Assembly: GCA_017999915.1 (NCBI GenBank)
Contig: JAGNKX010000013.1
Coordinates: 1-64,000 of the forward strand
DNA length: 64,000 nucleotides
Reading direction: 5' to 3'
DNA from: Spirochaetota bacterium
Lineage (GTDB): Bacteria > Spirochaetota > UBA4802 > UBA5550
Below the pieces are notes generated by a model. The model was not told the DNA's origin. It saw only the letters and a list, made by a program, of their open reading frames with translations, and ran no database searches. Below are positions 1,060-49,338 of the stretch, piece after piece. The first letter of the stretch is position 1, and each line of letters opens with the position of its first letter. The translations under genes were made by a program, and so were the position numbers.

Positions 1060-1115
1060 GGCGATTGTTGTCTGAGGCTGCACCGAACGGAGCGAATGCA
1101 GCCGAGTTAATCGCC
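1060..1115. repeat. Hairpin element A1 (TCTGAGGC...GCCGAGTTA type)
   Basis: The outer arms GGCGATT (1060-1066) and AATCGCC (1109-1115) are exact complements, and an inner stem GGCTGCA/TGCAGCC follows. The strings TGTCTGAGGC and GCCGAGTTA are shared with the hairpin at 49149-49199, whose arms have a different sequence but pair equally well. There is no T-tract, so it is not a typical terminator. Confidence 0.7.
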
Positions 1116-1180
1116 AAGGCCGTCGCGCCGCCTGAGCGACCGGGGTGATGGGGATCGAAAGGGGAAGGTCGTCGCTTTTT

Positions 1181-1220
1181 CGGCATCCTGCCGGCGGCGG
1201 CAGGCAAACATCCTGTTTGC
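1181..1220. repeat. Double hairpin element A2 with CATCCTG apices
   Basis: Two small hairpins lie in tandem: CGGCA-TCC-TGCCG (1181-1193) and GCAAACA-TCC-TGTTTGC (1204-1220), separated by a GGCGGCAG-containing spacer. The same layout is found at 49256-49297 with different but still pairing stems. Conserved apices and spacer with covarying stems indicate a structured element. Confidence 0.75.
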
Positions 1221-1720
1221 TCAGTGAATCACCCTCTTCCCTTTTAAAAAAAACCATGCCCTGGACCAGGGCGCATTCCCGCCTATTGGGACGATTGAAC
1301 GGAAAATGGAAAAATTTAAAGGTAGAATCCGTGATGATTAGAATGAAAATCAATTCTTTCTCATAAGGTTTTATGAAAGGGCACCTTTTATAATCTCAAG
1401 ACATTTTATGACTAAAACCCTCCATCTGTACATTAATTAATAAAAAATGAAAACTTTTTCTCCGCCGATCCTGTCAAAGTAAGACATGGCAAAGAGGCGG
1501 TTATAGTCCGTGTCAAAAAATGGTTTTTTTGAAAAAAATGTTTGCCCGCAGCTTATTTTATATGATAAAGATGTATCGGACATTTCGTTTCGATGGCTTT
1601 CTGCGCGGAGCCGGTGCGGTCAAGAATGATGGAACAGGGCCTCTGATGCGGGAAACAACAGGTTCGCCGGGAGGAGATCCCGGCTGCGCTGAAAATAAAT
1701 TATTTGTAAGGGGAACGACT

Positions 1721-28213: not shown

Positions 28214-28243
28214 GGTGCGGCCTCCTTTCCCTCTAACTGTTTC

Positions 28244-28390
28244 CTGAAAAACTCCCTCCTTGGAGTTTTTCAGGGTCGGTTTTACGAAGTGAATTCGTAA
28301 AACCTCACATTTTTCTCGGCTAATGCCTCGAAAAATGGCGATACATCCATGTATCGCTTAGCGGTTTGCTGTTTTTCAGCAAACTGCTAA
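28244..28390. repeat. Array of five consecutive hairpins
   Basis: Five inverted repeats follow each other. H1 is 28244-28273 (12-bp arms CTGAAAAACTCC). H2 is 28278-28304 (11-bp arms GGTTTTACGAA). H3 is 28308-28337 (CATTTTTC arms, inner GGC/GCC). H4 is 28338-28357 (9-bp arms GCGATACAT around CC). H5 is 28358-28390 (14-bp arms with one G-T). H3, H4 and H5 abut with no spacer. Apart from the A/T-rich tail after H5 there is no terminator-like T-run. The array lies upstream of the chemoreceptor gene. Confidence 0.85.
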
Positions 28391-28639: not shown

Positions 28640-28758
28640 GTTGCAAAACTAAGTATTTTAATGGGGTCTTAGGGGCGTAGCCCCTAAAAGCCCCCCGCAG
28701 GGGGTCCCCTGCGAGCGCGAGACGCAGTTTCGCAACAAGTCAACTATTTGCAGTTGAC
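28640..28758. repeat. Composite palindromic repeat
   Basis: Outer arms GTTGCAAAACT (28640-28650) and AGTTTCGCAAC (28726-28736, one mismatch) enclose two inner hairpins: TTAGGGGC/GCCCCTAA at 28669-28687, and GCAGGGG/CCCCTGC at 28697-28712. Another hairpin, GTCAACT/AGTTGAC (28739-28758), follows directly. Confidence 0.75.
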
Positions 28759-28790: not shown

Positions 28791-28837
28791 GATTGCTTCG
28801 TCGTCCCGATGGAATCGGGACTCCTCGCAATGACAGG
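28791..28837. repeat. ATTGCTTCGTCG...CTCCTCGCAATGACA dispersed repeat
   Basis: ATTGC/GCAAT ends enclose TCCCGAT (28804-28810) and ATCGGGA (28814-28820). The outer strings match a palindromic intergenic repeat that I know from many unrelated bacterial genomes (CATTGCGAGGAG type). It is non-coding. Confidence 0.7.
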
Positions 28838-49148: not shown

Positions 49149-49199
49149 GGGCGTCTGTCTGAGGCGAGTCCCGCGAAGCGGGCGAGCCGAGTTACGCCC
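49149..49199. repeat. Hairpin element B1 (TCTGAGGC...GCCGAGTTA type)
   Basis: GGGCGT (49149-49154) pairs with ACGCCC (49194-49199), with an inner CCCGC/GCGGG stem. It carries the TGTCTGAGGC and GCCGAGTTA strings found in element A1, and the arm sequences differ from A1 while still pairing. Confidence 0.7.
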
Positions 49200-49255
49200 A
49201 TAGCCCCCGCCGGCGAGGCGGCGCGGGGGGAGGGATTTAAAGGGCCGCCTTTATT

Positions 49256-49297
49256 TCGACATCCTGTCGAGTGGCGGCAGGCGAACATCCTGTTCGC
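49256..49297. repeat. Double hairpin element B2 with CATCCTG apices
   Basis: TCGACA-TCC-TGTCGA (49256-49270) and GCGAACA-TCC-TGTTCGC (49281-49297) are separated by the GTGGCGGCAG spacer. Element A2 has the same layout. GCAAACA/TGTTTGC against GCGAACA/TGTTCGC is a compensatory pair. Confidence 0.75.
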
Positions 49298-49338
49298 TCG
49301 ATGGGCTGGCCGCGGTGCCACCCCCTCCCTTTAAAATA

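Follow-up and report, generated by a model that had tools for sequence, protein, structure and literature searches.

The window analysed here, a stretch of 64,000 nucleotides of spirochaete DNA, contains two copies of a small element built from two hairpins with CATCCTG apexes (Table 1). In both copies the unit, 54-57 bp or about 55 bases long, folds into three stems. An enclosing stem of 6-9 bp (6 bp in the window copies) leads through a one-sided, T-rich bulge to the inner CATCCTG hairpin, and is followed, after its 3' arm and a linker of about two bases, by the second CATCCTG hairpin. The tips lie 25-28 nt apart in most copies found, with a peak at 26 or 27 in every group. Both pairs of hairpins lie where the original prediction had placed them. 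The GGCGGCAG that it described as a separator is also present, but it is not a spacer, since its GGCGGC pairs with the upstream arm and closes the enclosing stem. Copies with other stems beyond the window came to light when the genome was searched by BLAST and by pattern (a first whole-genome pattern search returned unrelated matches only), and a covariance model, R1, was built from six copies (alignment A3), copy 1 being left out. When a further and broader model, R2, was run unfiltered, copies 1 and 2 were its only matches in the window (E values of 3e-12 and 1e-8; next E 1.4). With 22 occurrences for an expectation of 10.3 (0/100 shuffles), CATCCTG is over-represented in the window; this excess, the model matches and the covariation described below rule out chance as the source of the double hairpins. 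Beside both copies lies another hairpin, GTCTGAGGC...GCCGAGTTA within a 6-7 bp stem, with a GA/AG internal loop resembling a kink-turn and with other copies in the genome.

Table 1. Coordinates of the two element copies, their parts and the adjoining repeats within the window.
Feature	Position	Strand	Basis or remark
Copy 1, double-hairpin element (CATCCTG strand)	1168-1222; core 1168-1220	+	R1 50.3 bits, E 8.7e-8 (copy 1 outside the model); R2 57.1 bits
Copy 1 enclosing stem, 5' arm GTCGTC	1168-1173	+	Pairs with 1196-1201; fold
Copy 1 bulge GCTTTTT	1174-1180	+	Directly 3' of the GTCGTC arm
Copy 1 hairpin 1	1181-1193; apex CATCCTG 1184-1190	+	
Copy 1 enclosing stem, 3' arm GGCGGC (the former 'separator')	1196-1201	+	Fold
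Copy 1 hairpin 2	1204-1220; apex CATCCTG 1209-1215	+	
Copy 1, opposite strand: two CAGGATG (GGA-loop) hairpins fitting the CsrA/CsrB loop motif	1181-1220	-	Sequence; consensus PMC7652899
Copy 1 host hairpin, arms GAAAGGGGAAG (1157-1167) and CTTCCCTTTT (1236-1245)	1157-1245	+	Sequence
Copy 2 of the element, apparent end ..TTCGCTC	49244-49299; core 49244-49297	+	R1 81.3 bits (copy 2 in the model); R2 77.0; edge placed by empty-site comparison
Copy 2 enclosing stem, 5' arm GCCGCC	49244-49249	+	Bulge TTTATT 49250-49255; fold
Copy 2 hairpin 1 TCGACATCCTGTCGA	49256-49270	+	
Copy 2 enclosing stem, 3' arm GGCGGC	49273-49278	+	Fold
Copy 2 hairpin 2 GCGAACATCCTGTTCGC	49281-49297	+	
Copy 2 host repeat hairpin GGGGGAGGGATTTAAAGG...CCACCCCCTCCCTTTAAA, broken by copy 2	49225-49335	+	Empty forms in L016, L019 (GGAGGGATCGAAAGG joined to GAGGGGGTGTCCGC)
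Neighbouring hairpin GGCGATTGTTGTCTGAGGC..GCCGAGTTAATCGCC, a dispersed repeat belonging to the compound host repeat	1060-1115	+	Motif also at 49149-49199 and in L007, L008, L011, L012
Second example of the neighbouring repeat hairpin	49149-49199	+	

Searched with R1, the genome yields 68 matches. About 61 are clear copies, forming several sub-families that share one layout while their stems are unrelated. A covariance-model search of the genome and its relatives had been proposed as the check on the element: besides these copies it finds the element in 26 of 39 relatives, with further covariation. In an alignment of 95 distinct copies, 94.6% of cells are paired, 416 double changes are counted and 15 of the 17 stem pairs have changed on both sides. 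The observation that stems differ between the window copies yet pair extends beyond these two. The covariation score is 0.658 against 0.134 in shuffles, none of 500 reaching the observed value, and is at most 0.11 when the alignment is slid; these statistics lean towards structure, having been taken from an alignment made to fit it, but the slid controls drop to 26-44% paired.

A structural RNA acting from one strand is expected to show far more G.U than A.C pairs. Across 215 distinct cores, the 3515 pairs comprise 3384 Watson-Crick, 62 G.T (G.U) and 69 A.C, a balance that carries no strand signal; in a small control, eight different tRNAs encoded in this DNA have 8 G.U and 0 A.C in 182 pairs. 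Because G.U and A.C are about equal and Watson-Crick pairing is near-perfect, covariation alone proves neither an RNA nor its strand. Such strict pairing suits DNA palindromes no less than RNA, for instance palindromes whose hairpins are recognised in single-stranded form or corrected by template switching. Of the proposal that the covarying stems reflect selection for structure, the structured element is retained, while selection on a plus-strand RNA does not follow from the covariation.

The element was initially thought to correspond to no named form. However, its architecture and strand match those of the Bacillaceae-1 RNA (RF01690), described as an RNA motif that is probably not cis-regulatory (Weinberg et al., 2010; PMC2864571). 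The discoverers of this motif were not confident of its strand, and a 2014 paper proposed that its reverse complement binds CsrA (PMC4333381). At the gathering threshold, no Rfam family, RF01690 and the CsrB-like families included, matches the window, and RF01690 at E<=5 has no match in the region 1000-1300. The best RF01690 match in this genome reaches 32.5 bits against a gathering score of 35 bits, so that the copies here stay below that score; several matches are nevertheless R1 matches, and the two models overlap, strand included, at C3:142143, C3:145159 and C12:33334. In permissive mode the element of Siminovitchia fortis matches RF01690, again on the same strand, and a Cytobacillus citreus copy found by the element pattern scores 63.7 bits, in an alignment with the parts in identical order. 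Both families share the bulged enclosing stem, an inner hairpin with a UCCUG loop, a short linker (3 nt in Bacillaceae-1), a second UCCUG-loop hairpin, the strand and a multi-copy distribution. They differ in the bulge, AAGAUC in Bacillaceae-1 and T-rich in this genome, and in the host, a spirochaete clade here rather than Bacillaceae; moreover, mobility and nesting, both seen here, are not described for Bacillaceae-1 in the literature found. That the element is real, structured, mobile and of Bacillaceae-1 layout is well supported.

The layout is not confined to one phylum. Among the spirochaetes, 49 of 247 genomes carry the element (R2, stricter filters), and a pattern scan of named genomes also found it in Bacillaceae and Gammaproteobacteria. 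Matches number 86 in S. fortis, 136 in S. terrae, 98 in C. citreus, 63 in Bacillus norwichensis, 25 and 34 in two gammaproteobacterial MAGs and 74 in the spirochaete MAG Nl494_bin20; R1 was built on one sub-family, so its counts outside the spirochaetes are minimum values. A fixed-pattern scan of viral contigs gave no match. Pattern matches in RTX-type coding repeats and in conserved Firmicute genes of other taxa were set aside, as they lack the stems.

In this genome, 61 of 63 mapped matches are intergenic. This position, and the resemblance of some compound host repeats to strong GC hairpins, would suit simple hairpins (terminators or stabilisers of mRNA 3' ends) that selection has kept and whose common tip is incidental. 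However, the window copies have no T-tract terminators. A terminator is superfluous between divergent genes, yet 21 of 58 classified copies are found there, and the fixed tip, the fixed tip spacing and the three-stem architecture recur across phyla. This explanation is already largely contradicted, and we consider it very improbable.

Mobility was assessed from empty sites. The flanks of each copy were joined and searched against DNA retrieved from the genomes studied, and 56 copies have a counterpart spanning the empty site; since compound repeats themselves spread, independent insertions are fewer than 56. No such counterpart was found for copy 1, and copy 2 breaks a repeat that occurs elsewhere in empty form. 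Many targets are apexes of other CATCC/GGATG hairpins, some within another copy. Thus GCAAAA-element-CACCATGTTTTGC (filled in L017, L059 and L071) corresponds to the empty GCAAAACATCCATGTTTTGC of L048, and GTATAA-element-CACCATGTTGAC, filled in about 19 copies, to GTATAACATCC(A)TGTTGAC in L395 and L404. Further apex targets are GGCCCATCCTGGGCC with its complement, CCACAGGATGTGG and GAACATGGATGTTC. In the GCAGAGCC sub-family an identical junction is found in two unrelated target hairpins, CATCC becoming element-CACC, as if the first three loop bases had been replaced by an element ending in CA. Insertions outside apex loops are found between AAAGG and GAGG and between AGTG and CC; the class that includes copy 2 lands at the former point or at similar purine-rich ones. 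Precise empty sites together with insertion into unrelated targets identify a mobile element. At L042-L044, L253 and L263 a unit lies inside another unit, and because insertion into CATCC/GGATG apexes includes the element's own copies, structures grow by nesting. The empty-site counterparts, the insertion into hairpin tips and the nesting are new here.

Several related repeats were seen alongside. L182 and L188, from a gammaproteobacterial MAG, contain tandem arrays of the unit in one host hairpin. Within the window, the hairpin repeat GAAAAACTCCCTCCTTGGAGTTTTTC... at 28232-28311 is an uninterrupted form whose element-carrying forms occur in L046, L068 and L073, and sites in L249 and L251 have an uninterrupted counterpart in the GC-rich hairpin pair at 28649-28712 (GGGGCGTAGCCCC, CCCCGCAGGGGG). 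A MITE-like compound repeat with inverted ends GTAGCAGTCGTAAATTAGGGGG / CCCCCTAAAATTATACTGCTAC bears the element in its apex (L350, L351, L354-L358, L404-L409 and others), and several of its copies have promoter-like TTGACA boxes downstream.

Mobile double hairpins of similar size exist in fungal mitochondrial DNA; they are not known to have CATCCTG tips or any sequence relation to the present element. Double-hairpin elements of this kind are named in earlier work (PMC4478555, PMC5910586). REP/REPIN sequences with their RAYT transposases, and the CGTC-tagged REPs (PMC3733652), are likewise small palindromes scattered between genes and regarded as non-autonomous mobile DNA. The present element differs from them in lacking GTAG, a consistent CGTC and a RAYT adjoining its copies, in combining two unlike hairpins with an enclosing stem, and in inserting into tips of its own kind. 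A palindrome resembling a CGTC-tagged REP, ATTGCTTCGTCGTCCCGATGGAATCGGGACTCCTCGCAATGACAG, lies at 28797-28836.

A rival reading takes the element for a selfish palindrome and nothing more: an HUH/Y1-type or other hairpin-recognising transposase would move it in single-stranded form, the CATCCTG tip would be where that enzyme recognises or cleaves the DNA, and CsrA would play no part. The near-perfect Watson-Crick stems with balanced G.U and A.C speak for it, as do target tips resembling the element's own and the presence of six Y1 transposase (Y1_Tnp) genes in the genome. However, no R2 match lies within 1.5 kb of any of these six genes, which leaves an association with Y1 or RAYT proteins unsupported, and no constant GTAG tag adjoins the stems in the copies examined. 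Strand orientation points both ways. In C. citreus (L310-L342), 37 of 42 copies have their CATCCTG strand aligned with GC skew, among them 10 of 10 between convergent or divergent genes. This suggests a bias towards one replication strand, as in IS200/IS605 elements, known to target the lagging-strand template (PMC6006769); in contrast, neither S. terrae (8/18) nor this genome shows it. A single tip-specific enzyme would also have to be conserved across three phyla, and the tip is free to vary at the same positions as the CsrA loop. We regard this reading as possible rather than likely.

The tips themselves were compared in 190 loops taken from the structure-model alignment, in which TCC was not required: 160 read CNTCCTG and 12 CNTCCNTG, together 172 of 190. 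Their opposite strand reads CAGGANG (C-A-GGA-N-G) or CANGGANG (C-A-N-GGA-N-G). For comparison, CsrB repeats read CAGGA(U/A/C)G, SELEX gave the consensus RUACARGGAUGU and the RsmE loop is ANGGAN (PMC7652899). The reverse-strand loops CAGGANG and CANGGATG fit the CsrA-site loop, both free positions included: GGA lies in a hairpin loop, in the frame A-(N)-GGA-N, under a C-G closing pair. CsrB/RsmZ RNAs likewise carry such loops as paired sites at fixed spacing, but with many sites in one long RNA rather than two per unit at about 60 dispersed loci. Also unlike these RNAs, the element has no visible promoter or terminator of its own (consensus scans at both window copies gave none clearly of an sRNA) and no Rfam match to CsrB-like families. 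The TwoAYGGAY RNA (RF01731) similarly has two GGA hairpins and has also been proposed to bind CsrA (PMC4333381), but it is a separate Rfam family, without a match in the window.

This genome encodes one CsrA, with the VHRKEIY motif retained, next to a FliW-like ORF; FliW rather than an sRNA may control CsrA here. In L101 (969-1758), the FliW-like ORF lies directly upstream of csrA and downstream of a flagellar-hook-like ORF. CsrA is present in all 11 element-bearing genomes tested, from three phyla, and is lacking in the single element-free genome. As CsrA is near-universal in the spirochaete phylum (226 of 247 genomes), co-occurrence there is uninformative; 5 of its 49 element-bearing genomes have no detected CsrA, four of them being 71-80% complete and one 95%. 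The specific prediction that CsrA binds these loops, already proposed in print for Bacillaceae-1, is strengthened by the coincidence of the variable positions and by the presence of the element in CsrA-bearing phyla. Our literature search found no paper joining CsrA with mobile repeats.

The opposite strand deserves the same scrutiny. A functional small RNA or cis element could act from the CATCCTG strand, as in Rfam's Bacillaceae-1, its two AUCCU loops being for instance anti-Shine-Dalgarno-like or protein-binding. RF01690 does model that strand, the structural covariation is strong, and one sub-family, the larger MITE-like compound repeat (n=19), precedes the next gene and points in its direction in 17 of 19 copies by manual count. 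Yet the strand has no excess of G.U, its first loop base is free whereas the complement spells out a protein site already known, and the discoverers' own doubt about the strand weighs in the same direction. Outside that sub-family orientation is random. In this genome no bias is seen relative to genes, replication or GC skew (32/63), and tandem intergenic regions hold 15 co-directional and 11 anti-directional copies. Random orientation is not what is expected of a fixed transcribed regulator. It counts against a CsrA-binding transcript as well, as does the lack of a G.U preference on either strand. An RNA acting from the CATCCTG strand appears improbable.

The element is a mobile, self-nesting palindrome: it reaches high copy number in three phyla, is dispersed between genes, inserts precisely and lands recurrently in hairpin apexes. 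The explanation that we favour, at slightly better than even chances, is a non-autonomous mobile double hairpin of Bacillaceae-1 architecture whose tips would offer CsrA sites and which would be moved by an enzyme recognising hairpin tips. In this scheme, the invariant part of the tip would be read on its reverse complement, as A-(N)-GGA-N closed by C-G, the loop of a CsrA site. A reverse-strand transcript of a copy would then present a pair of CsrA sites spaced by about 26 nt and could bind a CsrA dimer, as a decoy or as a local regulator. The units would be moved by a putative enzyme acting on single-stranded hairpin tips. On a bolder and rather doubtful extension, a cross-phylum family of mobile double hairpins spreads CsrA sites and lands in its own tips, and its nesting may build CsrB-like multi-site RNAs.

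Bacillaceae-1 has stood as a named candidate RNA with no established function in the literature found. Its high copy number in spirochaetes and gammaproteobacteria, the clean empty sites and the landing in like tips recast it as a mobile element. The case also warns against reading selection at the RNA level into every covarying stem of a dispersed repeat, since the stems here pair strictly by Watson-Crick rules and lack the G.U bias of an RNA. If the GGA tips bind CsrA, mobile DNA would scatter the sites of a global regulator through genomes, and nesting of the copies could, if this reading is true, be a way in which CsrA-sponge RNAs arise.
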